Shown here in pieces: positions 4,465 through 51,974 of a stretch of 64,000 bases of DNA. Each line of letters starts with the position of its first letter. The first letter of the stretch is position 1. The notes under the pieces were generated by a model. The model was not told the DNA's origin and searched no databases. It was given only the letters and a program-made list of their open reading frames with translations. Made by a program: the position numbers and the translations under genes. The stretch is taken from the NCBI RefSeq assembly GCF_024347455.1, contig NZ_AP025483.1, forward strand, positions 2,108,001 to 2,172,000, given 5' to 3'. This DNA is from Vibrio echinoideorum (GTDB taxonomy: Bacteria; Pseudomonadota; Gammaproteobacteria; Enterobacterales; Vibrionaceae).

Positions 4465-4548
4465 ATTTCGGACTCTGTATTTCATAGCGATACGCTTTTA
4501 CTTCAAACCAGTGCGCTCTTATTTCAAAGTAATGCGCTTTATTTCAGA
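4465..4548 (-). repeat. Four 21-bp tandem copies spanning the ycjF stop codon
   Basis: Degenerate units lie at 4528-4548, 4507-4527, 4486-4506 and 4465-4485. On the coding strand each resembles TTGAAATAAGAGCGCACTGGT-like sequence (TGAAATAA then AGCGC). The first unit is inside the coding region, the second carries the stop TAA, and the third repeats an in-frame TTGAAGTAA. The end of the gene therefore looks duplicated past its own stop. Confidence 0.8.
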
Positions 4549-5613
4549 AAGGACGGCTTTACGAAGGTCAGATAATTTTATTTTTCGCTCACTGTGCCAA
4601 GGCATAGGACGAAGCAAAGTCATGGCTTTTAAACCCAGTCGAGCGGTTAAAATACCAACACCTAAACCTTGCCCTGCTCTTGCAGAGACTTTACCCGCTA
4701 AGTCCATCGATACTAGGTCCATACTCGCGTCTATCGCCAGTTCGCTGGCACCCGCAGCAGCCATGTTGATTAACACCAACTTGAATAACTTAATGCGCGA
4801 CCAGTAACCTAGCTCAATGCCATAAACGTCAGCAAGCTTGTCTATCATGGTGAAATTACGCCACGCCACCAGCAACATATCCGCCGCCGCGAGTGGGCTC
4901 ACAGCAACCAGTGCTGCTGATTCCGTAGAGAACTTGGTAACGATTTGAGTGGCGACTTTATCTTGCTGACTCACGACCAACGCATCATACATATCCAACA
5001 CTTCAGCATCGCTGTGCGCCGGGTTAATACTGTTCCGCCACTTATCGTACGAAGGAGACTCAGCAACTATACCGCCCTGCTTGGCAATGTTTTCACAGAA
5101 CACTTTGCCTTTACCGACACTCTGGCTTTGTAACAGCTCTTCACTCTGCTCTTGCACACTGAAATGGTCTTTCAGTGAACGCAGCTTCCATAGCTCTTTA
5201 CCTATTGCGCCTAAACCCAATGAAGCAATAGCTGCGATAAAGCCCGCCCAACCTAACGCGAGCCAGTCTGCTGTTTGAATCGCGGTAATGACAGAGTCAA
5301 TTGCTTGCCAACCAACTAAACCAGAGAAAGCGACTAACAAGCCAGTTCCAAACCACTTCTTCTTTTTGCTCGGTCGAATCACTTGTTCCAGTTGCTGTTC
5401 AGCGTCACCATCAAGGTCGGCTTCCACTTGTGGCGCGACGGGTACAAATTTCTCTTGTTCCGTGAACAGTTGTTGAGCGCCTAAGTCTGGGTTCGCTTCA
5501 TCGATGCCTTGTTTCCCAAAAACCTTATCTTGTCCATGAAAACCACGGTCATGTTCATCGAATGAGGTCTTCAATGGTTCATCAAAGACCTGTTTTGTTT
5601 TTAATTCACTCAT
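4519..5613 (-). CDS. ycjF: YcjF family inner-membrane protein (DUF697)
   Basis: The protein has 364 residues from the ATG at 5611-5613 ([14 protein letters not shown]). That start has GAGG eight bases upstream and sits 14 bases after the ycjX stop; a longer reading frame would overlap ycjX. The N-terminal third is charged. Two membrane segments follow ([16 protein letters not shown] and [21 protein letters not shown]), then a DUF697 domain. In E. coli YcjX and YcjF belong to the phage-shock (PspF) regulon and sit next to tyrR, as here. Molecular role unknown. Its stop codon lies inside a 21-bp tandem repeat. Confidence 0.88.
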
Positions 5614-5627
5614 TTTGATTGCCTCAA

Positions 5628-7001
5628 TTACTTCAACTTGTCGCCAATGAGATACTCTAAAACCTTGTCGACTCTCAGATGCTGACAAGGCTCGTCGGAG
5701 TGTTGCTCCATTGGTCGAAAACTGGTGAAATCAAACTGGTTTGTTTCCCAATACTGTTTGTTCGGTAACTTACGTGGTACCTCACCCGGATACATAGTTT
5801 GAGGAACGTTATCTAATGTCGTTCCTTGCAATGCAGGCACTTGGGATGAACCTGAAGAAATATAACCGGCACTTGTCGCTTGAATCGACGCGATACTCAT
5901 GCAACTCATGTCGATATGTTCAAACGCCGCCTGTTGCCAAGCCGGATGCACCATCTGTTGCAATAGCGATACCAAGTTCGGATGTTGATCCGGTGTCACG
6001 TGGTCAGCCTTGGTGGCTGCAAACAATATCTTGTCTATCTTTGGAGCAAACAAGCGTCTTAGCATATTACTTCGCCCGTACTTAAAACTCTTCAATAACT
6101 GCTCTAGCGCACCGCGCATGTCCATGAAAGAGTCATAACCAGCATTGAGCGGTTGTAAGCAATCAACCAGAACAATTTGTCTATCAAACGTAGCAAAGTG
6201 ATTCTTATAGAACGCTTTGACTACTTTCTGTTGGTACTCTTCATAACGCGCTTTCAATACTGCGTAGTTACTGGTTTTTGAAAACTTATCTTCAGGTGCT
6301 TTGCACGGGAAGAATTGCAGTACAGGCGCACCTTCAAGTTCTCCAGGTAACACGAACCTACCGGGTTGTACCCAATGCAGTCCGTTATTCTTACAAGTAT
6401 GAAGATACTGAGTGTAGCTATCAGCAATCGCGACCAGTTTCTTTTCGTCAGCATCTGCTAATAAATCGATGTCACCGCGGATTGCGTTCCAGTCTTGTGA
6501 ATAGGTTTCCCTGTCGCCTTTCAACGCTGCGAATTGAGACTGACTCCACGTATCGAAGTCCATATCCAACAAGGGTAAATCAAGTAGCCACTCTCCCGGG
6601 TAATCGACAATATCGAGGAAGAGCGTACTGTTTTTACTCAGCAGTTTCTTCGCGCCTTTGGCAGGCTTATATTTGATGGCAAGGCGAATCTCACTGACAT
6701 CTCGTGTCGGCACTGGCCATTCTGGTGGCTCCGTATTGAGTGACTCCATCGCTTCATCATAAGAAAAACGTGGGATCATCATGTTGTGTTGAGGAATGCG
6801 CTTAGCGCCAATAATTCTTCCGTCTCTCGCTGATGCAAGTAGAGGCAGATTTTTGTGGGTAGACGTATGAAGAAGCTGATTAACCAACGAAGTAATGAAT
6901 GCTGTCTTACCCGCACGAGAAAGCCCCGTGACCGCTACTCGAATATGAGAATCCGTTCCTCTGCTTATAAAGTCACTCATTTCTTGAGTTAGGTGTTTCA
7001 T
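5628..7001 (-). CDS. ycjX: YcjX family P-loop GTPase-like protein (DUF463)
   Basis: The 457 residues include a P-loop [10 protein letters not shown] near residues 26-35, matching the DUF463/YcjX family. A further conserved-looking stretch, [15 protein letters not shown], resembles a G3-type DxxG region. The C-terminal part has a nucleotide-base-like element ([12 protein letters not shown], cf. NKxD). It is probably a cytoplasmic or membrane-peripheral NTPase working with YcjF, its downstream neighbour 14 bases away. The start ATG at 6999-7001 follows GGAG. A short CTTTTT x3 run (7088-7105) lies in its 5' region. The psp genes themselves are not adjacent here. Confidence 0.9.
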
Positions 7002-7150
7002 TTGAACGACTCCGTGATAGTTAGGCTAGCTGATTATGATAATAGAGAGGCAGCCTATGTACTTTCGCTGTTGGGATAGTATGTATGCTTTTTCTTTTTC
7101 TTTTTCTAATAGTAGTGAGTATGCAATACACATTCTTAATGCTAGATGAA

Positions 7151-7189
7151 TAAAAGCCCCTGACTACATTCATAATCAGGGGCTTTAGA
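7151..7189. terminator. Intrinsic terminator
   Basis: The hairpin AAAGCCCCTGA / TCAGGGGCTTT ends the small leftward gene at 7212-7397. A T-rich flank is present on the minus strand. Confidence 0.8.
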
Positions 7190-7211
7190 ATTTTTCTGCG
7201 ATATCCGACGT

Positions 7212-7397
7212 TTAATCGTCTTCAATCAACTTGTAGATAACAAACAGTGCAATCTCTGCAATTAGCCAAAGCGCACAAGTAATTGTCACGTATTTATTAT
7301 CAAAGATACTGATCCCTTTCAAGATCAGGTCGTAACCAACAAAAGCACCAATCACCACTGCCAAGATAATCTGTAGGATCTGAATAAAACGAGGCAT
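7212..7397 (-). CDS. Small two-helix membrane protein, 61 residues
   Basis: The protein has two predicted membrane helices (IQILQIILAVVIGAFVGYDL and TITCALWLIAEIALFVIYKL) with a short polar hairpin between them and an acidic end, EDD. I do not recognise the family. A strong ribosome-binding site (AGGAGAGAGGA) precedes the ATG at 7395-7397 and a terminator follows, so it is a compact single-gene unit. It is probably an inner-membrane protein; no function can be inferred. Confidence 0.75.
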   Translation of the reverse strand: MPRFIQILQIILAVVIGAFVGYDLILKGISIFDNKYVTITCALWLIAEIALFVIYKLIEDD

Positions 7398-9332: not shown

Positions 9333-10712
9333 ATGAATAACAACGAATTTCGCTCTATCCAAATCAAGCCGCTTCAATATCAATCAACTTTAGCTAAACA
9401 GCTGTTTTCTCATATTGAAAGTATGCCGTGGGCAATGCTATTACGCTCTGCTTCAGAAAGCCACGTTGATAGTCGATACGACATTTTAGTTGCTCAACCC
9501 ATCGCCACCTTCGAAACTATCGGCGCAGAAACGACCGTTAATGTTAATGAAGAGTGCGAGGTTTCAACGTCGGATCCTTTCGAACTACTCGACCAATATC
9601 AACAGCAATTATTACCAACGACAACGGAACACAGCGAATTACCATTCGTCGGCGGTGCGTTGGGTTATTTCAGCTACGATTTAGGTCGACGTGTTGAGAC
9701 ATTACCTTCTCTAGCGCAGCGTGATATTGAAGCTCCTGACATGGCGGTTGGCTTATATGAATGGGCCATTGTCGTTGATCACAAAGTGAAGACGGCATGT
9801 ATTGTCGGCCAAAATATTGATTCACATCTCGATTGGTTAACCTCGCAGTCAAAGCACAATGCAGTAATCCAACCTGCCTTTGGATTAACGACGCCATGGC
9901 AATCCAACATGAGTCAAGATAGCTATGCGAACAAGTTCGATAGTGTTCAAGAGTACTTATTATCGGGTGATTGTTATCAGATAAACCTTGCTCAGCGTTT
10001 TCGTGCCGATTACCAAGGCAGCGAATGGCTCGCTTATGAAAAGTTAGAGCAATACAATTCGGCACCGTTTTCCGGCTTTATTCGTCTTGAACACTCAGCA
10101 ATCTTAAGTGTCTCGCCAGAACGATTCTTAGAGCTCAATAGTGGCACCATAGAAACCAAGCCAATCAAAGGCACGCGTCCTCGTTCTGATGATCGTGAAA
10201 TTGATGATGCCCATGCTCAAGACTTGATGAATGCAGAGAAGGATCAGGCCGAAAACCTAATGATCGTTGACCTACTGCGTAATGATATTGGTCGCGTGGC
10301 GAAACCTGGTACGGTTCACGTCCCTAAACTGTTTGATATCGAAAGCTTCCCTGCTGTGCATCACTTAGTAAGTACAATCAGAGCCGATCTAGATTCTCAA
10401 TATTCAGCAACTGACTTATTGAGAGCTTGTTTCCCCGGCGGTTCGATTACTGGCGCACCAAAAGTGCGAGCAATGCAGATCATTGAAGAGTTAGAACCCC
10501 ATCGACGCTCCGCTTATTGCGGCAGCATTGGCTACATCAGTCGAAATGGCAGAATGGATACCAGCATTACCATTCGTACGTTAGTTGCTGAAAACAACAC
10601 GCTCTATGCGTGGGCTGGCGGTGGTGTGGTGTTCGATAGTGACTGTGCCTCTGAATACCAAGAGACGCTCGATAAGCTGAGTCGCATTCTGCCTGTGCTT
10701 GAAGACTGCTAA
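9333..10712 (+). CDS. pabB: Aminodeoxychorismate synthase component I
   Basis: The 459 residues include an early block MPWAMLLRSA...DSRYDILVAQP, as in PabB. The chorismate-binding domain follows, with SPERFLELNSG, PIKGTRPR (active-site lysine) and FPGGSITGAPKVRAMQIIEELE. With PabA it makes 4-amino-4-deoxychorismate from chorismate for folate synthesis. The start is uncertain: I chose the ATG at 9333; an upstream in-frame TTG at 9315 adds six residues, and neither has a good ribosome-binding site. It is monocistronic, divergent from fumarase, and ends at a bidirectional terminator. Three 8-bp units (CAGTTAAT/CAGCTAAT/CAGCTAGC, 10732-10755) follow the stop. Confidence 0.93.
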   Translation: MNNNEFRSIQIKPLQYQSTLAKQLFSHIESMPWAMLLRSASESHVDSRYDILVAQPIATFETIGAETTVNVNEECEVSTSDPFELLDQYQQQLLPTTTEHSELPFVGGALGYFSYDLGRRVETLPSLAQRDIEAPDMAVGLYEWAIVVDHKVKTACIVGQNIDSHLDWLTSQSKHNAVIQPAFGLTTPWQSNMSQDSYANKFDSVQEYLLSGDCYQINLAQRFRADYQGSEWLAYEKLEQYNSAPFSGFIRLEHSAILSVSPERFLELNSGTIETKPIKGTRPRSDDREIDDAHAQDLMNAEKDQAENLMIVDLLRNDIGRVAKPGTVHVPKLFDIESFPAVHHLVSTIRADLDSQYSATDLLRACFPGGSITGAPKVRAMQIIEELEPHRRSAYCGSIGYISRNGRMDTSITIRTLVAENNTLYAWAGGGVVFDSDCASEYQETLDKLSRILPVLEDC

Positions 10713-10762
10713 ACATACGTCATTTATTCGTCAGTTAATCAGCTAATCAGCTAGCGAAAAGC

Positions 10763-10873: not shown

Positions 10874-10936
10874 ATAGCTGATAGCTGATAGCTGATAACA
10901 AATAAGCACTAAGCACTAAGCACTAAGCACTAAGCA
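10874..10936 (-). repeat. Two 7-bp tandem arrays overlapping the kinase stop codon
   Basis: There are three copies of ATAGCTG (10874-10894), then four copies plus a partial of TAAGCAC (10903-10936). The second array includes the last Ala codon and TAG stop of the kinase gene (stop at 10930-10932). Both lie between that stop and the terminator. Confidence 0.9.
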
Positions 10937-12648
10937 ACATTCGCCGGCACAATACCCCATTTATGGAGCATTTCTTTCAGATCATTCGCTGTGTATGGCT
11001 TACTAAGAATGTCATCCATACCACATTGGATACAGCGCTCACGCTCTTCTAACGTTGTACCCGCTGTTAGTGCCACAATCGACTTGCTATAGCCTTTCTC
11101 TCGTAGCTTCTGCGTCGCTTCAAAGCCGTCCATGACCGGCATTCTGCAATCCATGAACACAATATCGTATTCGTTATTGCTCGCTAACTCGAAACCTTCT
11201 ACGCCATTGCTGGCTATGGCAGGGTCAATTTCGTATTTGCGTAACATTTGTTGGATGATGATCTGATTCATCTTGATGTCATCGACCACCAGCACTTTTA
11301 ATAAAGACAACTCAACATTTGATTCGACATTTTTGGCCACTCGTTCGTCTTCAAGCGATACTTCGATAACTTGTAGAGGTACAGAAATAGTAAAAGTTGT
11401 TCCGACTCCGACCACACTCGACACACTAATCTCACCATTCATCAGAGCAACTAGCTTGCGACAAATCGCTAAACCTAACCCGGTACCCTCATAATTTCGG
11501 CTGCTCGAACTATCAGCCTGAGTAAAAGGTTCAAACAAGGTTTTATGTGCCGACTCGGCTATGCCAACCCCTGTATCTTCAACAGAGAAAGCGAATTGGT
11601 TGTTGCCCCATTCAATATCAACATTTACATGCCCGTCTTCTGTGAATTTAATCGCATTGCCAATTAGGTTCACAAATAGCTGAGTGATACGCTCTAAATC
11701 CCCATTGAAATGAGTCGGTACGTTTGAGGCAACAGTGATATTAAATTCAAGCTGCTTCTCAATCGCACGGTTGGTAAAGATACTCTGAATCGTGTTTCTC
11801 AAATCATTCAGCGCAAACTTCTTCGGAATAAGCTCCAACATACCCGCATTAATCTTACTGTAGTCCAGTAAGTCATTAATGATGGTTCTTAGAAACTCAC
11901 CAGATTGGCTTAGGTTATTGACTATTTCACGTTGAGAGCCGGTTAATTCGGTATCACTGATCAATTCAGCACTACCCAACAAGCCGTTGAGTGGGGTTCT
12001 TAATTCGTGGTTAATCATCGCAACGAAATCGCGTGTTGCTCTTTCGGACTCTTCTGCTCGTTTGCGTGATTCAATATTTCGATTGATGGCGAGCTGATGA
12101 GTTAACGCACTGCATATCAGATCTGTTACCAGCAAGAGTTGGCTCTCGATAAACTCATAGTCTTGGTCCAGTAACCTAACCTTAACGATCAGCGCACCAA
12201 CAATCACCTTCTCGACTTCGAGCGGCACTGTCAGTAATTCACCTTGCCATTGAGGTTCTTGAATATCTTGATCTAACTCGCCGACCGTTTCGTCGCCGTA
12301 GTCGTATGCTAGAAGCTGAGGGATGAGTTTAGGCGGCAGTATCAGGCGACTGGCTTCAATCAAATAACTGTTGGTCACGTTAGCCGTTAGTTCAGACAAC
12401 ATGATGTCATCGAGATCATTCCTAAGAAACGCGCGCCCAAAATTGATCAACAGGTTGTCGATTTGTTCTTGAAACTCAATGCGGCGGATATTCGCGTTCG
12501 AACGCTTTTCTAACTGACGCAGCGCAAGCTCAAGCTGTTGGTTGGCCTCAAACAATTCGAGGCTCTTTTGTTCCAACAATGCTTCAGCCGCTTTGCGTGC
12601 CGCTATTTGACGTTTAAGCTTTTTCTCTAGGGCAGATGCCAGATCCAT
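10930..12648 (-). CDS. hqsK: H-NOX-associated hybrid histidine kinase (HqsK/HnoK type)
   Basis: The 572 residues comprise an N-terminal coiled coil (about 1-60), a GAF-like sensing region (about 60-190), HisKA with MINHELRTPL (His214), HATPase_c (NLIGNAIKF, EDTGVGI, GTGLGLAI) and a C-terminal receiver with VVDD and FMDCRMPVMDG (phospho-acceptor near Asp500). There are no membrane segments, so it is cytoplasmic. It starts one base after the hnoX stop, so the two are translationally coupled. In V. harveyi and Shewanella the H-NOX partner binds NO and controls kinase and phosphatase activity; in V. harveyi this feeds the quorum-sensing relay. A stand-alone target regulator is not adjacent here. 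Confidence 0.92.
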   Translation of the reverse strand: MDLASALEKKLKRQIAARKAAEALLEQKSLELFEANQQLELALRQLEKRSNANIRRIEFQEQIDNLLINFGRAFLRNDLDDIMLSELTANVTNSYLIEASRLILPPKLIPQLLAYDYGDETVGELDQDIQEPQWQGELLTVPLEVEKVIVGALIVKVRLLDQDYEFIESQLLLVTDLICSALTHQLAINRNIESRKRAEESERATRDFVAMINHELRTPLNGLLGSAELISDTELTGSQREIVNNLSQSGEFLRTIINDLLDYSKINAGMLELIPKKFALNDLRNTIQSIFTNRAIEKQLEFNITVASNVPTHFNGDLERITQLFVNLIGNAIKFTEDGHVNVDIEWGNNQFAFSVEDTGVGIAESAHKTLFEPFTQADSSSSRNYEGTGLGLAICRKLVALMNGEISVSSVVGVGTTFTISVPLQVIEVSLEDERVAKNVESNVELSLLKVLVVDDIKMNQIIIQQMLRKYEIDPAIASNGVEGFELASNNEYDIVFMDCRMPVMDGFEATQKLREKGYSKSIVALTAGTTLEERERCIQCGMDDILSKPYTANDLKEMLHKWGIVPANVA

Positions 12649-13192: not shown

Positions 13193-13656
13193 CTCATACC
13201 TTTTGTTCTATTTCTTTTTAGAATGAGCCACTAAGTGAGTGTTATCAAATTCTTAAGAACAAAATAACCACCCGTCACTCAATTTTATGACATGAGTAAC
13301 GCTTACTGACTCGTATGCACTTATTGAATATAGCAAAAACCTGAGAATTTAAGATAAAGCTTATATAGCTTGTCTATCTTATGTATCACTTGTCTGTCTT
13401 ATATATCACTTCCCTGTTTTTACCTTGCTTGTTTTCTTTCATACAATTTCTCCGCTTGGTTTAGACCTTCCTACTTAAAGTGACCCTATCACTATGCTAC
13501 CGGGTATTTAGCCAACAAAGAGGGGAGCAAGGAGCTGCTAAATAACAAATGGACATAAGCCAAACGAACCGCACAGCGAGCAAAACAGTGAGATTGGCTT
13601 TCGACTCAATGTTGTGCCTATACTTAAAATGATAATAATCAATATATTGGCATGAC
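13193..13656. other. 464-bp divergent intergenic region with a 20-bp repeat
   Basis: This lies between hnoX (-) and nudL (+). It contains a 20-bp direct repeat, CTTGTCTATCTTATGTATCA and CTTGTCTGTCTTATATATCA (13369-13408), followed by a degraded third copy. I see no convincing gene. Promoters for both flanking genes must lie here, but I cannot place them confidently. Confidence 0.5.
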
Positions 13657-15939: not shown

Positions 15940-17301
15940 ATGATTAGTGTATTTGATATCTATAAAATCGGTGTTGGTCCATCGAGCTCACACACAGTTG
16001 GACCAATGAAAGCGGGTAAAGAATTTATTGATGACCTACGTTCAATGGGAAAATTGCGCGACATCACTAAAATCACCGTGGACGTATATGGATCACTATC
16101 ACTGACAGGGAAAGGTCACCACACCGATATCGCTATCATCATGGGTCTTGCTGGCAACACCCCTGAGAAAGTAGATATTGACTCTATCGCGGGCTTTATT
16201 GCACGAGTAGAAGAAACTGAACGTCTACCTGTTGGTATGCACTGTCATACTGTTTCGTTCCCTAAAGATGGCGGAATGAATTTCCATAAAACCAACCTTT
16301 CTCTACACGAGAACGGCATGAGCATTCATGCTTGGGTTGATGACGAAGTAGCTTACTCAAAAACGTACTACTCTATTGGTGGCGGTTTCATCGTTGACGA
16401 AGAGAGCTTCGGCAAAGAAGAAGAAAACCCGATTAAAGCACCTTACGAATTCACAACAGCTGAAGAGCTGGTTAATCAATGTAAAGAAAGTGGTCTTTCT
16501 ATCAGTACACTGGTTATGAAAAACCAAGCGGCTTTCCACTCAGACGAAGAGTCTCGTACTTACTTCGCAAACATCTGGAAAACGATGCGTGAGTGTATGG
16601 ATCGCGGTATGAATACTGAAGGTATCCTGCCGGGTCCATTGCGTGTACCTCGCCGTGCAGCTTCACTTCGCCAACTTCTGATTACTTCAGAAAAAACAAC
16701 CAATGATCCAATGACGGTTGTTGATTGGGTGAACATGTTTGCATTCGCAGTAAACGAAGAAAATGCTGCCGGTGGCCGTGTTGTTACTGCACCAACTAAC
16801 GGCGCATGTGGCATCATCCCTGCTGTATTGGCGTACTACGACAAGTTCATCCAAACGGTGACAGAGAAAGATTACATCCGTTACTTCGCAGCTTCTGGTG
16901 CGATCGGTGGTCTTTACAAGCGTAACGCTTCTATCTCTGGTGCTGAAGTTGGCTGTCAGGGCGAAGTTGGCGTGGCATGCTCTATGGCTGCTGCTGGTCT
17001 TGCTGAGCTTATGGGTGGTAGTCCAGAGCAAGTATGTATGGCTGCAGAAATCGGCATGGAACACAACCTAGGTCTTACATGTGACCCTGTTGCTGGCCAA
17101 GTACAAGTACCATGTATCGAGCGTAACGGTATTGCTGCAGTTAAAGCAATCAACTCGACTCGTATGGCACTTCGTCGTTCTTCTGCTCCTACTGTATCTC
17201 TAGATAAAGTTATCGAAACTATGCTAGAAACAGGCAAAGACATGAACGCTAAATACCGTGAGACTTCTCAAGGTGGTTTGGCTGTTAAGGTTGTTTGTTA
17301 G
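15940..17301 (+). CDS. sdaA: L-serine ammonia-lyase (iron-sulfur, single chain)
   Basis: The protein has 453 residues from the ATG at 15940 ([29 protein letters not shown]), preceded by GAGG; the upstream in-frame codons lie in the terminator. Domains are the beta domain (about 1-160) and the alpha domain (about 185-450). Likely 4Fe-4S cysteines lie in [11 protein letters not shown] and in [17 protein letters not shown]. The enzyme converts L-serine to pyruvate and ammonia in the cytoplasm, using serine brought in by SdaC. The stop codon lies inside an 18-bp tandem repeat. Confidence 0.95.
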
Positions 17302-17346
17302 TTAGCATTAGTTTGCTAGTCAGCATTAACTTGTTGGTCAACATTA
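17293..17346 (+). repeat. Three 18-bp tandem copies beginning at the sdaA stop
   Basis: The units are GTTTGTTAGTTAGCATTA (17293-17310), GTTTGCTAGTCAGCATTA (17311-17328) and ACTTGTTGGTCAACATTA (17329-17346). The first contains the sdaA TAG and the second repeats TAG in frame. The array ends about 50 bases before the terminator. Confidence 0.88.
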
Positions 17347-17395
17347 GTTAACAAGCCAACGCTTAACTCAGTCTGCTTGATAACGAGCAGATAAT

Positions 17396-19196: not shown

Positions 19197-19223
19197 AAAA
19201 AAGGCGCTCTTGTGAGCGCCTTT
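19197..19223 (-). terminator. Intrinsic terminator for queD
   Basis: Read on the minus strand, the stem AAAGGCGCTC / GAGCGCCTTT is followed by TTTTTT. It lies beyond the 8-bp repeat array that follows queD. Confidence 0.85.
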
Positions 19224-19226
19224 CGT

Positions 19227-19315
19227 AACTTTGAAACTTTGAAACTTTGAAACTTTGAAACTTTGAAACTTTGAAACTTTGAAACTTTGAAACTTTGAAA
19301 CTTTGAAACTTTGAA
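19227..19315 (-). repeat. Eleven perfect copies of an 8-bp unit downstream of queD
   Basis: AACTTTGA is repeated eleven times without change (19227-19314), with the first base of a twelfth copy. It lies between the queD stop (19404) and its terminator (19197-19223), so it is predicted to be transcribed in the queD 3' untranslated region. Perfect conservation implies recent expansion or ongoing slippage. Confidence 0.95.
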
Positions 19316-19403: not shown

Positions 19404-19766
19404 TTATTCACCGCGGTAGATACAACCGGCAGTGCATGTTTCTTTAATTTCAACTTTGCTTAGAAGCGGCAAGTTTGGTTTTAGCTCGTTCCAGATCCAT
19501 TTAGCTAATACTTCACTCGTTGGGTTTTCTAAACCTTCAATGTCGTTCAAGTAGTAGTGATCAAGACGGTCGTAGATTGGCTTGAAGACTTCTTTAATTT
19601 CAGAAAAGTCGATTACCCAGCCTGTATGTGGATCAACTTCGCCTTCTACGTACAAACGAACAAGAAAAGAGTGTCCATGCAAACGACCGCACTTATGCCC
19701 TTCTGGCACGTGTGGAAGATGGTGGGCTGCTTCAAACATAAACTCTTTGTATAACTCAGATCTCAT
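19404..19766 (-). CDS. queD: 6-carboxy-5,6,7,8-tetrahydropterin synthase
   Basis: The 120 residues are of the usual PTPS/QueD length. Zinc-binding histidines lie in AAHHLPH and in the block CGRLHGHSF, which also carries the catalytic cysteine. The C-terminal part has [12 protein letters not shown] and [13 protein letters not shown], both QueD-typical. It converts dihydroneopterin triphosphate to carboxytetrahydropterin in queuosine synthesis. It is monocistronic here, with its 3' region occupied by a perfect 8-bp array. Confidence 0.95.
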
Positions 19767-21783: not shown

Positions 21784-21815
21784 AAAAAAGCGCTCAAAGA
21801 TGAGCGCTTTATCTT
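21784..21815. terminator. Bidirectional intrinsic terminator
   Basis: AAAGCGCTCA / TGAGCGCTTT, with an A-run on the left and a T-rich right side. Shared by the convergent chemotaxis receptor (+) and sulP (-) genes. Confidence 0.8.
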
Positions 21816-21834
21816 CATAACAATGTCTAGTTCC

Positions 21835-21874
21835 GGCTTTCAGGCTTTCAGGCTTTCAGGCTTTCAGGCTTTCA
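21835..21874 (-). repeat. Five perfect copies of an 8-bp unit downstream of sulP
   Basis: GGCTTTCA is repeated five times exactly (21835-21874). It lies 18 bases after the sulP stop (21893-21895 on the minus strand) and before the terminator. Confidence 0.92.
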
Positions 21875-23383: not shown

Positions 23384-24121
23384 GTAATTCTCTTTTACTT
23401 ATACAGTCATCCCTGCCTTGTTGAGACATAATTTGATCGACTGTTTTTCTTGAATGAGCGAGCGCTCGAAAAGTGCGGGTGTAGAGAGAATGCAGGGGCT
23501 AAGGCGGCGTAATTAACACGTGAATATTAAACTCCTCTGGTTTGTGATTGGTTTGCTATTGATTAAGTAAGCTCAAGCCGATTAATAATAGGTACGTAAG
23601 GTAAACAGTAAAAATTAAGCTAGCGAGTAAACATTAGACTAGATCGTAAGTATTAAGTTGGATCGTAAGCATTGAGCTAGCTTGAGCCGCGCCAATATAA
23701 AGTGAGTCTTGATGCAATCACACATTCATTATTGCAAACAAAGATTCCAAACCCATACCAGCTCGTCAACGGTTACGGCTATTCATTAAAACGGTTACTG
23801 CTATTCACTAAATCCGTTACTAACCTAGTTTAATAACCTAACTTCGGCATGACGTTTATAAACGTCTAACGGCAATTACACCGCATGAAATCGAACAAAA
23901 AAACAACCCTTAGTGGTTTTTATTGTCTGTAGACACAATATTTCTTTCGTCGAGCAAGAATAAAGGTTGAAGCTGTCCGTATGACAGGTAATATGTTCAA
24001 TCGATTTAAAAAGTTTATACAACTCAATGTTTCGGCTAATTATTGTGCAAAAGTCTATTTATTTGTATTAATGCCAGTAACTTTGAGCTGAATTTGTCCC
24101 TCTATGGAGAATGAAACCAAC
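23384..24121. other. 738-bp divergent intergenic region with degenerate repeats
   Basis: This lies between sulP (-) and asnS (+). It contains a 10-bp palindrome CGAGCGCTCG near 23460, two related copies around GATCGTAAG (about 23640-23680), and a 21-22-bp degenerate tandem repeat (AACGGTTACGGCTATTCATT and AACGGTTACTGCTATTCACT, 23768-23810, with a partial third). No open frame is convincing. Both promoters should be here. Confidence 0.5.
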
Positions 24122-33589: not shown

Positions 33590-33629
33590 TTGATAAGTTG
33601 ACAAGATTATTGATAAGTTAACAAGTTAG
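33590..33629 (-). repeat. Two 20-bp tandem copies at the stop of the outer-membrane protein gene
   Basis: TTGATAAGTTGACAAGATTA (33590-33609) and TTGATAAGTTAACAAGTTAG (33610-33629). The second overlaps the TAA stop (33626-33628 on the minus strand). The array lies between stop and terminator. Confidence 0.75.
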
Positions 33630-34267
33630 TACTCTAAGAAAAACTCCACCCCTAGCTCGTTAGTACGCTCACTACGAATCTTACCTTCGCCATCTCGGTG
33701 TTGATAAGAACCACCAATCGCAAACTTGTTGGTCACTAGATAGCGTAAACCTAGGTGATAGATCTCTTCGTCAAACAGGTCACTTCGGTTAACTTGCACA
33801 CTGCCATTAGCAATCCAACGTTTCGCAAAACCATAGTTGAGTTCAGCTTTTAGACCTTGGATAAACTCCGTATCTGAAGATTCAGTTTGATTCGTATCAT
33901 TGTCTTCAACCTTACCTTTAGTAATACCAAGCAAGTAGGAAGCAACGAGATCGAGATCTTTTCGGATACTATAACGGTAACCAGCACCTGTCATTAAAGT
34001 ATCAATACGAGTGGTAGTTTCATCTGGATGAATGAAGCGTGCGCTGTAGTCACCCAATAACAACCAATCATCAGTCATCGTATAACTAACACCCAACCCG
34101 TACGATGATGCATTATTATTACTACCCGCATCTTCATTCAAACTACCCGAATGAGCGGTCGCGTATATGTGGTCATAATCCAGAATGTTTACATCTCCAG
34201 ACACTGCCCATGAGTTCGAAGAAAACACTGCAATTACTGATACTAAACTTAGCTTCCACATCGACAT
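33626..34267 (-). CDS. Outer-membrane beta-barrel protein
   Basis: The 213 residues begin with a signal peptide (KLSLVSVIAVFSSNSWAVSG). The mature protein shows alternating amphipathic strands, such as SSYGLGVSYTMTDDWLLLGDYSARF and LGLRYLVTNKFAIGGSYQHR, and ends with the outer-membrane-type terminal aromatic in GVEFFLEY. It is a small barrel, probably of the OmpA/OmpW-like porin-fold type; no ligand can be inferred. The start at 34267 has AGGA eight bases upstream. The stop codon is inside a 20-bp repeat. Confidence 0.8.
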   Translation of the reverse strand: MSMWKLSLVSVIAVFSSNSWAVSGDVNILDYDHIYATAHSGSLNEDAGSNNNASSYGLGVSYTMTDDWLLLGDYSARFIHPDETTTRIDTLMTGAGYRYSIRKDLDLVASYLLGITKGKVEDNDTNQTESSDTEFIQGLKAELNYGFAKRWIANGSVQVNRSDLFDEEIYHLGLRYLVTNKFAIGGSYQHRDGEGKIRSERTNELGVEFFLEY

Positions 34268-36314: not shown

Positions 36315-37031
36315 ATGAATAGACTCTTTAGCTCCCCTGCGGTTGATTGGCCTTTTAAATTTGCTCAAAAGCTAGAACGTTCGAAGGATGAACGTTTGAA
36401 GCAGTTCTATGGCGAACCGCTGCCCGATCCCGAAACGCCATTATCTGAAGTGACCTTTTTAGCCGTGGACTTTGAAACTACAGGCTTAAATCCGGTAAAA
36501 GATGGCATTATTACTATTGGCTTAGTGCCTTTTACACTCAATCGTATTTATCTACGACAAGCAAGGCATTGGACGCTAAGGCCTAAGCAAAAGCTGGAAG
36601 AAGAATCGGTGGTCATCCACGGTATCACGCACAATGACATCATTGATGCACCAGACTTAAATGAAGTGCTCGAAGAGATCTTAGGTGCAATGGCTGGCCA
36701 TATTCCGGTAGTTCACTACCGCCGTATTGAACGTGATTTCTTAGACAATGCGTTAAAAGTAAGGCTAGGCGAAGGCATTGAATTTCCAGTATTAGATACA
36801 CTAGAAATCGAATCTCAGATTCAGCATAAATTGGCTGGTGGCTTGTGGAACAAACTAAAAGGTAAGAAACCCGCGTCAGTAAGACTTGGGCAAAGCCGTC
36901 GTCGATACCACTTACCGGACTACACGCCACACCATGCGCTAGTGGATGCCATTGCAACCGCAGAACTACTCCAAGCGCAGATCGCCCATCACTATAGCGC
37001 TGATATGCCCTTGAAGGATTTCTGGCTGTAG
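36315..37031 (+). CDS. DnaQ-like 3'-5' exonuclease (DEDDh)
   Basis: The 238 residues start at the ATG at 36315; a GTG at 36309 overlapping the upstream stop is also possible. Exonuclease motifs: VDFETTGLNPVKDGIITIG (ExoI, D and E), an ExoII region around HYRRIERDFLDNAL, and HHALVDAIATAELL (ExoIII, H and D). It is close to the epsilon-subunit family but short and without a polymerase-binding tail. It is encoded with the cNMP/CBS/DUF294 protein, which may control it. The TAG stop is the first of twelve consecutive in-frame stop codons made by a TAGTAA repeat. Confidence 0.88.
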   Translation: MNRLFSSPAVDWPFKFAQKLERSKDERLKQFYGEPLPDPETPLSEVTFLAVDFETTGLNPVKDGIITIGLVPFTLNRIYLRQARHWTLRPKQKLEEESVVIHGITHNDIIDAPDLNEVLEEILGAMAGHIPVVHYRRIERDFLDNALKVRLGEGIEFPVLDTLEIESQIQHKLAGGLWNKLKGKKPASVRLGQSRRRYHLPDYTPHHALVDAIATAELLQAQIAHHYSADMPLKDFWL

Positions 37032-37064
37032 TAATAGTAATAGTAATAGTAATAGTAATAGTAA
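37029..37064 (+). repeat. Six perfect TAGTAA units starting at the stop codon
   Basis: The array begins with the gene's own TAG (37029-37031). Read in frame it is TAG TAA six times, twelve consecutive stop codons. The terminator lies about 35 bases further. Confidence 0.95.
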
Positions 37065-37097
37065 TCGCGATGGCCGTATGAAAGATCGCAAACATAA

Positions 37098-37137: not shown

Positions 37138-37830
37138 TTACTCTGCTGTCGGACCAACCAATCGCATTTCCCAATCTTCAATCTCTCCAGTTTCTAGGCG
37201 ACGCTCGACAAGGTTGCCCCAAGATTCGACTAACGGCAGCCTAGCCAGCTCGCTTAGCTCTTGTTTGTCGAGACAACCAGTGAAAACCGCGCCCATGATT
37301 CGAGCTAGAGGCCAGTCAGGATAAGGTCTTTCGCACAAAATAATCTCATCACCAGTACCAATATCACCGTCTTCCAATACTCGGAAGTACCAACCTGTAC
37401 GAAGAGTATCTTGTAACCTTCTTGCCATGTCATGTTGGTCGAATCGTACATTCAACTTCCAACAAGGCATACGCCCTTGCGAGACTTCCAATAATGTTGA
37501 GCCAATACGAATCTTATCTTTCAAAAAAATTGACGCTTCCGTCACGCCAGTTGAACTGAGGTTCTCACCAAATGCGCCTGCGGTTTGAAAGATCGCCTTA
37601 TCGCCCAATTCGTGCTGCCAAACTGGGTAGTGTTCACTTGGATAAATATGAAGGGCTTTTTGAATACCACCATGAAAGCGAGGGTCACCTTGCTCGTCGT
37701 TGATAAAACCAAGCTCTGTAGCGTGTTGACGACCAGACACAACTTGTTTGTCAATGGCACTTTGTGCACCGTGTGCAAAGGCCACAGTCTTGCCTGCTAA
37801 TACGTTATTCACTACGCCTAACTTTTTCAT
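37138..37830 (-). CDS. MOSC-domain protein (YiiM-like)
   Basis: The 230 residues resemble E. coli YiiM and contain a MOSC domain (about 25-170), with DPRFHGGIQKALHIYPSEHY, GAFGENLSSTG and a cysteine in GRMPCWKLNVRF that corresponds to the conserved MOSC sulfur-carrying cysteine. YiiM-type proteins act in molybdenum-cofactor-dependent detoxification of N-hydroxylated bases. The ATG at 37828-37830 follows GAGGAAGGG. A cytoplasmic enzyme; no operon partner is visible. Confidence 0.85.
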   Translation of the reverse strand: MKKLGVVNNVLAGKTVAFAHGAQSAIDKQVVSGRQHATELGFINDEQGDPRFHGGIQKALHIYPSEHYPVWQHELGDKAIFQTAGAFGENLSSTGVTEASIFLKDKIRIGSTLLEVSQGRMPCWKLNVRFDQHDMARRLQDTLRTGWYFRVLEDGDIGTGDEIILCERPYPDWPLARIMGAVFTGCLDKQELSELARLPLVESWGNLVERRLETGEIEDWEMRLVGPTAE

Positions 37831-37859
37831 ATCCCTTCCTCTTTAACTGAGATTTGTCT

Positions 37860-37944
37860 GCTTAACTTTATCGCTTGCTTAGCCTTGCCGCTTATATAAC
37901 TTTATCGTTTGCACAGCCTTGTCACTTGCTTAACCTTGCCGTTT
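37860..37944 (-). repeat. Five 17-bp degenerate tandem copies after the 80-residue gene
   Basis: Units at 37860, 37877, 37894, 37911 and 37928, for example GCTTAACTTTATCGCTT and GCTTAGCCTTGCCGCTT. They lie 28 bases beyond the stop of the leftward gene 37973-38215 and occupy most of the gap to the MOSC gene start. Confidence 0.85.
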
Positions 37945-37972: not shown

Positions 37973-38215
37973 TTATCGCTGTCCCAATGACCTGAACATC
38001 GGAATCGAAGCCAATACCTCTATACGTTTTTCTGTACTTTTTAGATAGCGAGTTTCACTGTCAGAATACAATACATGCCGCTGATAACCTTCTAAGTGAG
38101 GGAATTTAGCTAACACGGTTTTAAGTGATATTTCACATATTTCTTGGTTGATGTTATCAATGTCTATTTTGAATAAGAGTTGGTTTTCTTTGGATATTTC
38201 GACTTGATATCGCAT
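37973..38215 (-). CDS. Hypothetical protein, 80 residues
   Basis: A small soluble protein beginning MRYQVEISKENQLLFKIDID, with alternating beta-like and helical stretches. There is no known motif and no signal peptide. A strong ribosome-binding site (GGGGAG) precedes the ATG at 38213-38215. It is followed by a 17-bp tandem array. Divergent from an AraC regulator gene 87 bases away. Family not recognised. Confidence 0.65.
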   Translation of the reverse strand: MRYQVEISKENQLLFKIDIDNINQEICEISLKTVLAKFPHLEGYQRHVLYSDSETRYLKSTEKRIEVLASIPMFRSLGQR

Positions 38216-39138: not shown

Positions 39139-39177
39139 TTAGTAAGAACACTAGGTAAGAACGCTGAGTAAGAACAA
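39139..39177 (+). repeat. Three 13-bp tandem copies after the AraC gene
   Basis: TTAGTAAGAACAC, TAGGTAAGAACGC and TGAGTAAGAACAA (39139-39177), starting 23 bases after the stop codon and before the shared terminator. Confidence 0.8.
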
Positions 39178-42030: not shown

Positions 42031-43974
42031 GTGAATCAATACGCTGTTATCTGTTTGGACAATAATCCGGTTAGCATTGAAAGAATACGTTCGGAGCTGG
42101 CTCCGTTAGCTTCTGTATTCGATATTTATACTGCCGAGAACATAGAAGACGCGCATCACGCATTAGAAGATATCCATGATCACCACCAAACCGTTGCTTT
42201 AGTGATCACTCATCATCATTCTGGATTTAATGGTGTGCAATTTCTTATTGAACTGGAACAGCTGCCCCATAGTAATACCGCAAGAACGATATTAGTCAGC
42301 GCTTCGTCAGACATTCAATCCATTCTGACCGCGGTGAATGAAGGCCGGCTCAATCACTGCCTAACCAAACCCGTTCAAGATCAAGTTCTCTTCAAATCGG
42401 CGCAAAAAGAGCTGACCTCTTTTGTTATCCAATACGACTCAGAAAACCTGTTATCTTACAGCGACGCGTTGGATCAACAGCGCTTATTCAGAGCACACAT
42501 CGAACAAAAGATTCATTCTTTTCAATCGGGTTTCATTCACGACTACCACCAACTTTCTGACAATGCCCTTGCAGAACGCGTGGTCAGTGCCTTACAAGAT
42601 GTCTTCTCTAAAGACGATAAAACCAAAGCCATTCGTGATTACTCACCGGAACATTTGCTTACTGTAGAAGGTGAAGACAATCGTTTCTTGTGGTTAATCA
42701 TCGAAGGTGAAGCGGCACTCTACAAAAAAGATGAGCTAGGACAGCAACGAGAAGTAGTACGTCACTCAAAAGGTAACATTGTTGGCGGCATGTCATTCGT
42801 GACTGGCGAGCCTTCATTCTCAACGGCAATTACCCTAACCCAGACAAGAGTGATCAAGCTTGATAAAGATAGCTTTGCTCAGGTCATGCATTCAAACAGT
42901 ACCCTGCTCCCACTCTTTACTAACCTGTTGCTTCGTCACTTTAACCGACGCTTGCAAAGAAGCATCACCAATAAGATTAAGCTCCAACAAACACTCGAGT
43001 CATTGGAATCCGCACATCAACAGTTAATCGAGAAAGAAAAGATGGCAATGTTGGGTCAGCTTGTCGCGGGCGTAGCGCACGAACTGAACAATCCAATTGC
43101 AGCTATTTTGAGAAGCATCGAAACCTTGTCTGAACATCTCGATCAGATACTCAATAACTCATCACTCCCTGACTCCAACAAAGGGACGGACGTATTAGCG
43201 CATTCGAAATTAGCGAAGCCGCTATCAACAGCTCAAGAGAGACAGTTGGTGAAGCATCTCTCGTCGACCATTGATGATCGTGCTCTGGCAAAAAAAACAG
43301 TAAGGCTAAATCTGAGCCAAGACACTGCAGTATTAAACACTTTAAAAGAGTCACCTGTCGCAGGCAGAGAGCTGCTCAACGACTTAGAACATTACCACTA
43401 TGTTGGAAACTCAATTCGCTCTATTCAAGTTTGCAGCAAACGCATTGCTGACATGGTGAAAAGCTTAAAAAGTTATGCCCGAGAAGATGAAGAAGTTCGC
43501 CACTACGCCGATATTCACGAAGGGCTTGAAGACACGCTCGTTATTTTTGAAAACAGACTTAAACATCATCAACTTGAAAAACATTACGACACCGACTTGC
43601 CACCTTTGTTGTGCCAGTCACTCGCATTGCAACAAGTGTGGACTAACCTTCTTTCCAATGCGCTCGATGCCCTTTCTGAGAAAGGGAAAGTTTCGATCAC
43701 AACCTCTCAGGAAACAAGAGGTGGCGATGCTTTTCTGGTAGTGCAAATATCCGACACAGGTCAAGGTATCGATAAAGCACACATCAACACTATTTTCGAC
43801 CCAAATTTCACGACTAAAAAAGAAGGTAACTTTGGTCTAGGGATTGGGCTATCCATCTCTCAACAAATTGTTTCAGCTCATCAAGGGTTTATTTTGGTGG
43901 AGTCTGAGGTAGGAAGCCATACTCACATGCAGGTTTGGCTCCCATTCAAACAAGAAGGAGCACCTCATGAATAA
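42031..43974 (+). CDS. Sensor histidine kinase with degenerate receiver and cNMP-like domain
   Basis: The 647 residues start at a GTG with AAGGTTGAG upstream. Order: receiver-like domain (1-130), cyclic-nucleotide-binding-like domain (about 190-310), a short coiled coil, HisKA with GVAHELNNPIAAIL (His350), an insert, and HATPase_c (about 520-640, NLLSNALDAL, ISDTGQGI, FGLGIGLSIS). In the receiver the phospho-acceptor aspartate is replaced: the segment VITHHHSGFNG has His61 where the partner regulator has Asp61. There are no membrane helices. Its last eight bases overlap the start of a response-regulator gene, so the two form a pair. Confidence 0.88.
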   Translation: MNQYAVICLDNNPVSIERIRSELAPLASVFDIYTAENIEDAHHALEDIHDHHQTVALVITHHHSGFNGVQFLIELEQLPHSNTARTILVSASSDIQSILTAVNEGRLNHCLTKPVQDQVLFKSAQKELTSFVIQYDSENLLSYSDALDQQRLFRAHIEQKIHSFQSGFIHDYHQLSDNALAERVVSALQDVFSKDDKTKAIRDYSPEHLLTVEGEDNRFLWLIIEGEAALYKKDELGQQREVVRHSKGNIVGGMSFVTGEPSFSTAITLTQTRVIKLDKDSFAQVMHSNSTLLPLFTNLLLRHFNRRLQRSITNKIKLQQTLESLESAHQQLIEKEKMAMLGQLVAGVAHELNNPIAAILRSIETLSEHLDQILNNSSLPDSNKGTDVLAHSKLAKPLSTAQERQLVKHLSSTIDDRALAKKTVRLNLSQDTAVLNTLKESPVAGRELLNDLEHYHYVGNSIRSIQVCSKRIADMVKSLKSYAREDEEVRHYADIHEGLEDTLVIFENRLKHHQLEKHYDTDLPPLLCQSLALQQVWTNLLSNALDALSEKGKVSITTSQETRGGDAFLVVQISDTGQGIDKAHINTIFDPNFTTKKEGNFGLGIGLSISQQIVSAHQGFILVESEVGSHTHMQVWLPFKQEGAPHE

Positions 43975-44464
43975 GTACCTAATTTTATGTGTCGACGATG
44001 AACCGGAAGTTCTTAACAGTGTCCTTCAAGACTTAGCGGTATTTGAAGAAAATTTTATCGTTGAAGGTGCAGAATCGGTAGATGAAGCCAAACAAGTGAT
44101 TAAAGAGATGGGACAAGATGGCATTAAACTCGCCTTAATCTTGTGTGACCACATCATGCCAGATAAAACCGGGATTGATTTTCTCATTGAACTCAACCAG
44201 CACGATCACACTAAGCCAACGCGTAAACTCCTACTCACAGGGCAAGCTGGGTTAGAAGATACCGTGACGGCAATTAATAACGCAGCGCTGGATTTCTATA
44301 TTTCTAAGCCTTGGAAAGGCGATCAGCTCAGAGACACGATTACTCAACAACTGACTGACTATGTCATTGCAAACGACAAGCAATTGCTAAACTGGACGGC
44401 GATCTTGGATACCGAACGTATACTGACCTCAATGGCAGACAAACGTACAAGCTTTGGTGAGTAG
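43967..44464 (+). CDS. Single-domain response regulator with short C-terminal tail
   Basis: The 165 residues contain a full receiver domain (1-125): acidic pocket VDDEP, phospho-acceptor Asp61 in LCDHIMPDKTG, LLTGQAG and the conserved lysine in FYISKPW. About 40 residues follow without a DNA-binding or known output domain. It resembles the N-terminal receiver of the upstream kinase, suggesting duplication with loss of the phospho-site in the kinase copy. It overlaps that gene by eight bases. Likely a phosphotransfer or protein-interaction output. A 21-bp degenerate repeat follows the stop. Confidence 0.88.
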   Translation: MNKYLILCVDDEPEVLNSVLQDLAVFEENFIVEGAESVDEAKQVIKEMGQDGIKLALILCDHIMPDKTGIDFLIELNQHDHTKPTRKLLLTGQAGLEDTVTAINNAALDFYISKPWKGDQLRDTITQQLTDYVIANDKQLLNWTAILDTERILTSMADKRTSFGE

Positions 44465-44479
44465 TTCTTACACCTTATT

Positions 44480-44562
44480 TAATTGCACTTAAGTTTTGTC
44501 TAATTACGCTTAGATTTTGTTAATTTCGACTTAGATTTTGCTTAATTGCGCTTACATTTTGG
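44480..44562 (+). repeat. Four 21-bp degenerate copies after the response regulator gene
   Basis: Units of 20-21 bp starting at 44480, 44501, 44521 and 44542, sharing TAATT..CGCTTAGATTTTG. They begin 15 bases after the stop codon. I see no clear terminator after them. Confidence 0.8.
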
Positions 44563-46013: not shown

Positions 46014-46023
46014 ATCCGTTGAT

Positions 46024-47290: not shown

Positions 47291-47344
47291 GTCACTGTTA
47301 AGTGACAAGTAAATGTAATATGAAGTAAATGCAATGGGGAAAGC

Positions 47345-50715: not shown

Positions 50716-50725
50716 CCATTCAATT

Positions 50726-50770
50726 TTAGTTGCATCAAATTGAAAATTTCTTTCTTTTTGATGTAACTAA
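50726..50770 (+). terminator. Long imperfect hairpin after panP
   Basis: TTAGTTGCATCAA pairs with TTGATGTAACTAA (12 of 13) across a T-rich loop. No T-run follows, so it is a weak terminator or an mRNA end-protecting structure. Confidence 0.5.
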
Positions 50771-51073
50771 GCTGTCAGTTCATACTCAATTTGCATTCTT
50801 TTTATTCAAAATCTCTTCCAGTTCTGTAGTTTTCTAAAATTTTGTTGAGGTTTGTCATATTCTTAAGCATTCATGCCGTGTTTTTGTATTAGTAAATAGT
50901 ATGTTGGGTTTATACTGACTCTATGGTGCTAGTTAGCTTGATATCTCTTTGACGCAGCAGTATTTACAGACCAAAAATATTTTGAGTATTGTTTTACTGA
51001 TATTTGTTTCAGCCATACCCCCTGGTAAAAAGATATTAACTAGCAAGTTGTTCTCTATACCCTTGTGAACACT
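50771..51073. other. 303-bp upstream region of hexR
   Basis: AT-rich leader between panP and hexR. I looked for a HexR palindrome (TGTAAT-N-ATTACA type) and found none I would defend. The promoter must lie here. Confidence 0.35.
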
Positions 51074-51928
51074 ATGAATACATTAGAAAAAATACAAAAA
51101 AACCTGGAAAATTTCAGCAAGTCTGAGCGTAAGGTAGCCGAAGTAATCATGGCTTCCCCTCAAACTGCAATTCATTCTAGCATTGCTACCTTAGCTAAAA
51201 TGGCTGACGTAAGTGAGCCTACAGTTAACCGCTTCTGTCGTCGTTTAGACACAAAGGGCTTCCCTGACTTCAAACTTCACCTAGCACAAAGCTTGGCGAA
51301 CGGTACACCTTATGTGAATCGTAATGTTGAAGAAGATGATGGCCCAGATGCTTACACGCATAAGATTTTCGAATCGACTATGGCTTGTTTAGACGTTGCT
51401 AAAAACAGTCTAGATGCGATGCAAGTAAACCGTGCGGTTGACTTGTTGACTCAAGCTAAACGCATTTCGTTCTTCGGTTTAGGTGCCTCTTCAGCGGTAG
51501 CGAAAGATGCTCAAAACAAGTTTATTCGTTTTAATATCCCTATCACTTGTTTCGAAGACATTGTGATGCAACGAATGAGCTGCATTAACTGCAGTGATAA
51601 CGATGTTATTGTTCTTATCTCTCACACTGGCCGTACCAAAAGCCAAGTTGAGATTGCGAACTTAGCTCGTGAGAATGGTGCAACCGTTATCGCAATTACC
51701 GCGAAGGACTCTCCATTAGACAAAGCAAGCTCTCTGTCTATTTCATTGGATGTACCCGAAGACACTGACGTTTACATGCCAATGGCAAGCCGTGTGGTTC
51801 AAATGACGGTTATTGACGTGTTAGCGACAGGCTTTACTCTTCGCCGCGGTTCTGGTTTCAGAGAGAATCTAAAGCGCGTAAAAGAGTCACTTCGCGATTC
51901 ACGTTACGAGAAATACTCTCAGTTCTAA
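51074..51928 (+). CDS. hexR: Central-carbon regulator HexR (RpiR family)
   Basis: The protein has 284 residues from MNTLEKIQKNLENFSKSERKVAE; an in-frame GTG at 51065 adds three. Domains: an N-terminal RpiR helix-turn-helix (about 1-75: ATLAKMADVSEPTVNRFCRRL) and a SIS sugar-phosphate domain (about 120-250: FFGLGASSAVAKDAQ, ISHTGRTKSQVEIA). It closely resembles E. coli and Shewanella HexR, which senses 2-keto-3-deoxy-6-phosphogluconate. The ribosome-binding site is weak. A 15-bp repeat and terminator follow. Confidence 0.95.
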   Translation: MNTLEKIQKNLENFSKSERKVAEVIMASPQTAIHSSIATLAKMADVSEPTVNRFCRRLDTKGFPDFKLHLAQSLANGTPYVNRNVEEDDGPDAYTHKIFESTMACLDVAKNSLDAMQVNRAVDLLTQAKRISFFGLGASSAVAKDAQNKFIRFNIPITCFEDIVMQRMSCINCSDNDVIVLISHTGRTKSQVEIANLARENGATVIAITAKDSPLDKASSLSISLDVPEDTDVYMPMASRVVQMTVIDVLATGFTLRRGSGFRENLKRVKESLRDSRYEKYSQF

Positions 51929-51929
51929 C

Positions 51930-51974
51930 CTGCAAAGACATGAACTGAAAGCACATGACCTGAAACAAGCTGAA
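51930..51974 (+). repeat. Three 15-bp degenerate copies right after the hexR stop
   Basis: CTGCAAAGACATGAA, CTGAAAGCACATGAC and CTGAAACAAGCTGAA (51930-51974). They begin two bases after the TAA and end six bases before the terminator. Confidence 0.75.

Follow-up and report, generated by a model that had tools for sequence, protein, structure and literature searches.

Short tandem arrays with a unit that changes from site to site cluster at the ends of genes in Vibrio echinoideorum, a member of the Vibrio splendidus clade (the closest named matches to one protein of the stretch studied here come from splendidus-clade species, at 96% identity). The starting point was a 64-kb stretch of its genome (contig 1, positions 2,108,001-2,172,000; hereafter the window), in which a sequence-only reading had listed eleven genes with an array overlapping or closely following the stop codon. 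The stop-side bias is real, genome-wide and raised in one clade, and its placement is only partly explained. We consider that it probably arises from slippage combined with the retention of arrays where they do no harm, possibly with an extra cause acting on short units in 3' untranslated regions (3' UTRs). Bacterial 3' UTRs have been little studied. Should their evolution turn out to proceed mainly through short tandem duplications, this would explain their fast turnover, provide strain-typing markers for the splendidus clade and allow a natural test of whether slippage is promoted by transcription without translation.

Arrays past stop codons, mainly before terminators

Sampling covered the window plus 54 stretches of 20 kb from elsewhere in the genome (1.144 Mb out of 5.74 Mb in four contigs). 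Arrays were detected by Tandem Repeats Finder (TRF), with cut-off scores of 40 or 50 in the counts that follow, and 1001 genes were called by a purpose-built small Markov gene finder, which on a stretch of Escherichia coli K-12 called 47 genes and recovered 42/42 annotated stops and 39/42 starts (this check used 42 of the 47 coding rows, omitting two cut genes, pyrR, ypeD and insL3). The terminator was defined as the first hairpin-plus-T-run downstream of each stop, and was recognised at 388 of the 672 stops that had 60 nt available vs 30/672 base-shuffled sequences.

At a score of at least 50, the distance to a stop is no more than 30 nt for 58 of the 111 non-coding arrays, compared with a mean of 25.1 and a highest value of 35 in 200 random placements; thus, arrays are clearly commoner near stops than elsewhere, the point on which the sequence-only reading had staked its claim. 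With the window left out the count is 51/99 (random mean 22.1, highest 33), and in the window alone it is 7/12 (random mean 3.1, highest 7 in 200 runs), numbers so small that the window by itself is only suggestive. The stop codon itself is overlapped by 26/111 arrays (random mean 14.6, highest 24), and an array is present from -5 to +100 at 91 of the 711 stops having at least 40 nt of space. At a score of at least 40, arrays account for 5.1-7.2% of the non-coding bases 0-60 nt past stops, 0.7-1.9% of those in the 60 nt preceding starts and, within genes, 0.28% of the coding bases. A comparison with simulated sequence gave the same picture, i.e., exact runs near stops number 133.8 per 100 kb vs 1.2 in third-order Markov sequence (period multiples counted apart), so that head-to-tail copies in the TRF arrays exceed a chance expectation close to zero.

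The suggestion that arrays usually precede a terminator also holds, as in tandem genes their share of the bases is 6.87% upstream of the terminator, 0.66% within it and 1.62% downstream, the first of these figures being somewhat inflated by the arrays lengthening their own stretch. Convergent pairs are array-rich on both sides (7.34% before and 7.57% after) because the far side of the terminator is the 3' UTR of the other gene, and the first 100 nt past the 284 stops without a recognised terminator contain 4.8-4.9% array bases. Seeding of the arrays by the terminator hairpin was rejected, tandem-gene arrays being fewer beside it (3.0% of the nearest 25 nt vs 9-13% at 25-100 nt before). Arrays thus tend to sit past the stop, for the most part upstream of the terminator, with a short gap left to the hairpin.

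Short and long units

We distinguished a short-unit class (9 bp or less, in practice 6-9 bp and mostly 7-8) from a long-unit class (13 bp and up). Near stops, exact runs are dominated by periods 7 and 8 (20.6 and 14.7 per 100 kb), with some at 6, few at 5 or 9 and none at 1-4, 10 or 11, while the highs at periods 14, 16, 21, 24 and 28 are largely multiples. Coding arrays included, 22 of the 37 short-unit arrays (four of them coding) match perfectly and 79 of the 103 long-unit arrays match at 70-89%.

That position rather than unit sequence recurs is borne out genome-wide, since the stop bias is shared by arrays whose units are unrelated (32 unit classes among 33 non-coding short arrays). What these units have in common is composition: a TA step occurs in 28/33 vs a background of 17.2, in 19/24 vs 12.6 when stop-overlapping arrays are excluded and in 26/36 vs 18.6 when relatives are added, and GG and CC are each found in 2/33 (background 6.7 each). 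About two dozen unit motifs were tested and therefore only the strongest motif result carries weight.

The 33 short-unit arrays comprise 19 in convergent, 12 in tandem and 1 in divergent spacers, plus 1 at a stretch edge, and the long-unit non-coding arrays 18, 42, 16 and 2, respectively. With 35 kb of convergent, 101 kb of tandem and 47 kb of divergent spacer sampled, this amounts to 5.41, 1.18 and 0.21 short-unit arrays per 10 kb and to 5.13, 4.14 and 3.43 long-unit ones (Fisher test of short vs long units, p = 0.0018 for divergent vs convergent and p = 0.020 for divergent vs the rest). Six related Vibrio genomes, sampled at 200 kb each, gave 2.20, 1.05 and 0.21 for short units and 5.51, 1.64 and 1.04 for long ones, with no significant split between the classes by spacer type (p = 1.0). 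The short-unit bias is thus present in both data sets; the class split is unreplicated. Among the 12 tandem-gene short arrays, five precede (in 10.9 kb) and three follow (in 36.6 kb) a recognised terminator, and four are at sites where none was recognised.

Turnover between species

Past the stop of sulP, the orthologous regions L044, L047 and L125 of related species carry a single copy of TTCAGGCT followed by TTCA, L038 has 2.2 copies and the window 5.5, i.e., copy number differs between related species. In L042 (V. tasmaniensis) the site is occupied by a different 8-mer, TTTAAGAT, in 4.9 copies, and in L037 the segment is missing. The three single-copy alleles read TTCAGGCTTTCA, where TTCA is found again 8 positions further on. 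This 4-bp direct repeat, spaced at exactly the later unit length as slippage would require, can seed an 8-bp slip. It is from this allele series only that we infer an origin by slippage.

Other loci change as well. At the convergent region of the hybrid histidine kinase gene (hqsK), L039 has TTGAGTG x 4.9 on the kinase side and L051 has GCCAGAA x 14 on the side of the other gene. The sdaA array was detected by program in L051 (18 bp x 1.9) and is visible by eye as degenerate copies in L043, L036 and L042; it is an older array. For the ycjF-type gene, no array was found by program in L149 and L159, where imperfect copies are visible by eye, and L226 and L227 lack the array of the gene for the DnaQ-like exonuclease. 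Judging from such orthologous regions of related species, many arrays are young and births are recurrent. The process is ongoing, as the sequence-only reading had proposed, since one and the same site differs between species in copy number as well as in unit.

Arrays of the window

All eleven listed arrays exist, and one of them, at the barrel gene, is below program detection. The features of the window are as follows.

4478..4546, minus strand: 21 bp x 3.3 (TRF score 71), overlapping the stop of a TIGR01620-family (ycjF-type) gene (4519-5613, minus)
10731-10753: 8 bp x 2.9 (TRF score 39), a small array 18 nt past the stop of the gene at 9333-10712 (plus)
10874..10897, minus: 7 bp x 3.4 (ATAGCTG; TRF score 48), 3' UTR of the hybrid histidine kinase gene (hqsK)
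10903..10936, minus: 7 bp x 4.9 (TAAGCAC; TRF score 68), overlapping the stop of the same kinase gene (10930-12648, minus)
13369..13417, no strand: 20 bp x 2.2 (TRF), divergent spacer
17293..17349, plus: 18 bp x 3.2, degenerate (TRF score 65), overlapping the sdaA stop
19197..19226, minus: terminator-like hairpin and T run after the queD array (sequence inspection)
19227..19315, minus: 8 bp x 11.1, perfect (AACTTTGA; TRF score 178), 3' UTR of queD (19404-19766, minus), 88 nt past the stop
21785..21815, no strand: terminator-like hairpin between the gene at 20120-21754 (plus) and sulP (sequence inspection)
21831..21874, minus: 8 bp x 5.5 (TTCAGGCT; TRF score 81), 18 nt past the stop of sulP (21893-23383, minus)
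23627..23820, no strand: two long-unit arrays of 19 bp and 22 bp (TRF), divergent spacer
33590..33629, minus: 20 bp x 2 (16/20 identical by direct comparison), overlapping the stop of an outer-membrane barrel gene (33626-34267, minus)
37029..37065, plus: 6 bp x 6.2 (TAGTAA; TRF score 74), starting with the stop codon of the DnaQ-like exonuclease gene
37859..37938, minus: 17 bp x 4.7, degenerate (TRF score 62), 3' of a doubtful 80-residue open reading frame (ORF) and 5' of a MOSC gene (37138-37830, minus)
39141..39176, plus: 13 bp x 2.8 (TRF score 51), 25 nt past the stop of an AraC-type gene
44479..44561, plus: 21 bp x 4 (TRF score 108), 14 nt past the stop of a response regulator gene (43967-44464, plus)
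51934..51965, plus: 15 bp x 2.2 (TRF score 48), 5 nt past the stop of an rpiR/SIS (hexR-type) gene (51149-51928, plus), followed by a hairpin and T run at 51981-52004

The claimed position is weak for two of the listed arrays: that of queD begins 88 nt away from the stop, and that of the 80-residue ORF (37973-38215, minus) belongs to a doubtful gene. This ORF was not called by the gene finder and has no Pfam match; among the homologous loci compared, one similar stretch was seen (L227, in two pieces), and it is possibly a small gene in decay. The barrel-gene repeat went unreported by TRF at a score of 30. The arrays at 13369..13417 and 23627..23820 depart from the 3' rule. The 22-bp array of the latter spacer (23768-23820, upstream of sulP) is also found in L040 with 3.5 copies, and with a period of about two helical turns it resembles a repeated binding site more than an array made by slippage. 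The array at 10731-10753 is an extra one that the sequence-only reading had not listed, and the hybrid histidine kinase gene comes after an HNOB (haem-NO-binding) gene.

Breadth across genomes and repair genes

Non-coding arrays number 9.7 per 100 kb in the V. echinoideorum genome, 8.0, 4.5 and 3.5 in its near relatives G011, G005 and G006, and 3.5, 1.0 and 1.0 in the other Vibrio genomes G003, G007 and G009. Two genomes from other families of the order, G061 and G065, have 2.0 and 5.0, and 200 kb of E. coli K-12, of which ca. 24 kb is non-coding, yielded no non-coding array reaching a score of 50. Array density is higher on the stop side than on the start side in 7/7 Vibrio genomes sampled. 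In G061 the stop side has 0% array bases vs 1.46% on the start side, in G065 the richest DNA is that far from gene ends (2.81% vs 2.14% at stops), and when these two families are pooled, post-terminator DNA is about as array-rich as 3' UTRs. In a set of 68 homologous loci, each at most 21 kb long, arrays occupy 2.71% of the stop side in 13 splendidus-like loci vs 0.39% in 34 other Vibrio loci. Within this small sample, the strong form is thus a Vibrio feature, chiefly of the splendidus clade.

Loss of repair genes as the cause of the high array level was rejected for mutS, mutL, ExoI and recJ, since all are present (mutS matched in 61/61 genomes of the genus, the other three in 9/9 genomes each). 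The MutL frame (G000:C1:3254762-3256756) has 761 residues in the V. echinoideorum genome, 760 in G011, 737 in G006 and 735 in G005, and is shorter in G009 (701), G003 (685) and G007 (656). Its length roughly tracks array density among Vibrio, for which phylogeny alone may account.

Slippage, tolerance and other explanations

In the explanation that we favour, arrays would be generated when, in the course of replication, short direct repeats undergo slipped-strand mispairing, with repeated births past the stop codon, largely before the terminator, followed by decay through point mutation. Loops of 6-9 bp units would be too large for MutS-type repair and would lead to expansion, and loops of 1-3 nt would be repaired; this loop-size argument for mismatch repair is stated in PMC4060949. 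The DNA between stop and terminator would be among the least constrained of this genome, such that insertions including or following the stop are kept, while coding DNA, the majority of terminators and the DNA near starts would be purged of them. No cellular role of the arrays would be required, and an additional cause specific to 3' UTRs may act on the short-unit class.

Tolerance is favoured as the main cause because array density follows conservation (Spearman -0.71, p = 0.007, 13 compartments, each measured on 7-25 aligned regions with orthologues). Thus, 3' UTRs are among the least conserved compartments (0.72 and 0.64 of own bases identical) with 6.87% and 7.36% array bases, start-proximal DNA is conserved (0.93 and 0.88) with 0.34% and 1.34%, and terminators are the most conserved overall (0.93-0.94; tandem ones 0.94, with 0.66%). 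Several observations weigh against this explanation. The conservation measure is partly circular, because alignment suffers where there are repeats, and draws on 7-25 regions for each compartment. Tolerance by itself does not account for an excess of 7-8 bp units in 3' UTRs. Divergent DNA at least 150 nt from starts is as unconserved as the 3' UTRs (0.625, 8 regions) and yet has only 3.2% array bases, a 3' UTR to start-distant divergent ratio of 2.3 for all units (with a wide interval, 1.1-7.3). Bootstrap ratios with a zero denominator were set aside and zero counts used instead: short-unit arrays occupy none of 11,436 bases of this start-distant DNA vs 3.33% in 3' UTRs, and the six relatives have no short-unit array in 6,225 + 7,424 bases of it. 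Convergent terminators contain 3.45% array bases despite their high conservation, and the TA richness of units (28/33) is not predicted by slippage alone. It is because equally unconserved divergent spacers hardly carry short units that we consider an addition specific to 3' UTRs possible for this class.

Such an addition could amount to a mutational hot spot, in which RNA-DNA hybrids or stalled polymerases in transcribed but untranslated DNA would promote the expansion of short units beyond that in untranscribed spacers. The skew of short units towards convergent spacers, far weaker for long ones, speaks for it, as does the five to three split of tandem short arrays around the terminator in very unequal lengths of DNA. 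We nevertheless regard it as rather unlikely, given that the class split has no significance in the six related Vibrio, that the ratio of 3' UTR to post-terminator DNA in three near relatives (2.6) has an interval of 0.8-24 that spans 1, and that arrays show no leading/lagging strand bias (p = 0.50) and a mere hint of a link to codon usage, i.e., to expression (p = 0.057). Equally tentative is the bolder version, that stop-to-terminator DNA of Vibrio is a hot spot for 7-8 bp expansion through lost ribosome cover on the nascent RNA and that 3' UTRs evolve mainly by the birth and decay of short arrays; the loss of ribosome cover as its cause is a suggestion, not a result.

A selected function, whether as backup stops, as spacing between terminator and ribosome or as protection of mRNA 3' ends (the roles proposed by the sequence-only reading), appears very improbable to us. 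Arrays are indeed commoner before than after terminators, a stop triplet is present in 22/30 sense-strand units (null 13.9) and the DnaQ-like array forms 12 consecutive in-frame stops (TAG TAA x 6), but stop triplets are equally common on the opposite strand (22/30), because the units are TA-rich. In-frame stops within 10 codons are found in 39/58 cases vs 331/620 (p = 0.053). With a signal that is weak and strand-symmetric overall, backup stops were rejected; frame selection on unit length was likewise dropped, there being no frame preference (33/32/26 for length modulo 3). Moreover, 620/711 eligible stops do without an array of score 50, and units, copy numbers and UTR lengths vary between species; at sdaA and sulP the DNA from stop to terminator is longer in some species than in others, contrary to a terminator spacer of fixed length. 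Even more remote is the insertion at gene ends of a dispersed mobile element or bound repeat family (REP, MITE or regulator site). It would account for the recurrent position, but it was rejected for short units, as they share no common sequence (32 distinct classes in 33 arrays), and even the exact AACTTTGA x 3 pattern is found only at queD in the sampled genome. Slippage with tolerance thus remains our preferred explanation, and stop-proximal repeats counsel caution against assuming function.

Comparison with known repeat systems

It is already known that heptamers are in excess in bacteria, that bacterial repeats have a weak tendency towards 3' positions and that heptamers occur close to stops in Xanthomonas. 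PMC4692102 describes G-rich heptamers in Xanthomonas, many within 50 bp of stops, and cites the bacterial heptamer excess (Mrazek 2007) with polymerase slippage as a hypothesis; PMC4060949 reports 4-11 bp units as normally or weakly over-represented in prokaryotes, and PMC12699852 finds repeats weakly enriched both up- and downstream of bacterial genes, with a preference, in its discussion, for positions downstream of bacterial and archaeal gene ends. The claim that these arrays are an unnamed element therefore stands in part, i.e., no named stop-anchored class with changing units was found among the matches listed in open-licence PubMed Central, nor, within the same matches, the strength of the bias, the changing units, the lean towards the stop-to-terminator stretch or visible births; stop-proximal heptamers and weak 3' placement are in print.

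The GGGAATC repeats of Xanthomonas and the GGGGA(C/T)T repeats of Nostoc (PMC4692102) are heptamers that are mostly intergenic and in many cases lie within 50 bp of stops or overlap them, as the Vibrio arrays do; GGGAATC also shares with them the lack of a leading/lagging preference. Each of these is, however, one G-rich, quadruplex-capable unit, whereas the Vibrio units differ each time (32 classes in 33 arrays, GG in 2/33). The TAACTGA repeats of marine Beggiatoaceae (PMC4679880) are likewise short direct heptamer repeats present in many intergenic regions, but they represent a single fixed unit mostly just upstream of starts in the Beggiatoaceae genome, and in Vibrio the units differ and start-proximal DNA is array-poor. 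Like prokaryotic simple sequence and variable-number tandem repeats in general (PMC4060949, PMC12699852), the arrays consist of head-to-tail copies, are non-coding and variable and have units of more than 1-3 bp; what sets them apart is a stop-side preference that is several-fold and a level that is raised in one Vibrio clade.

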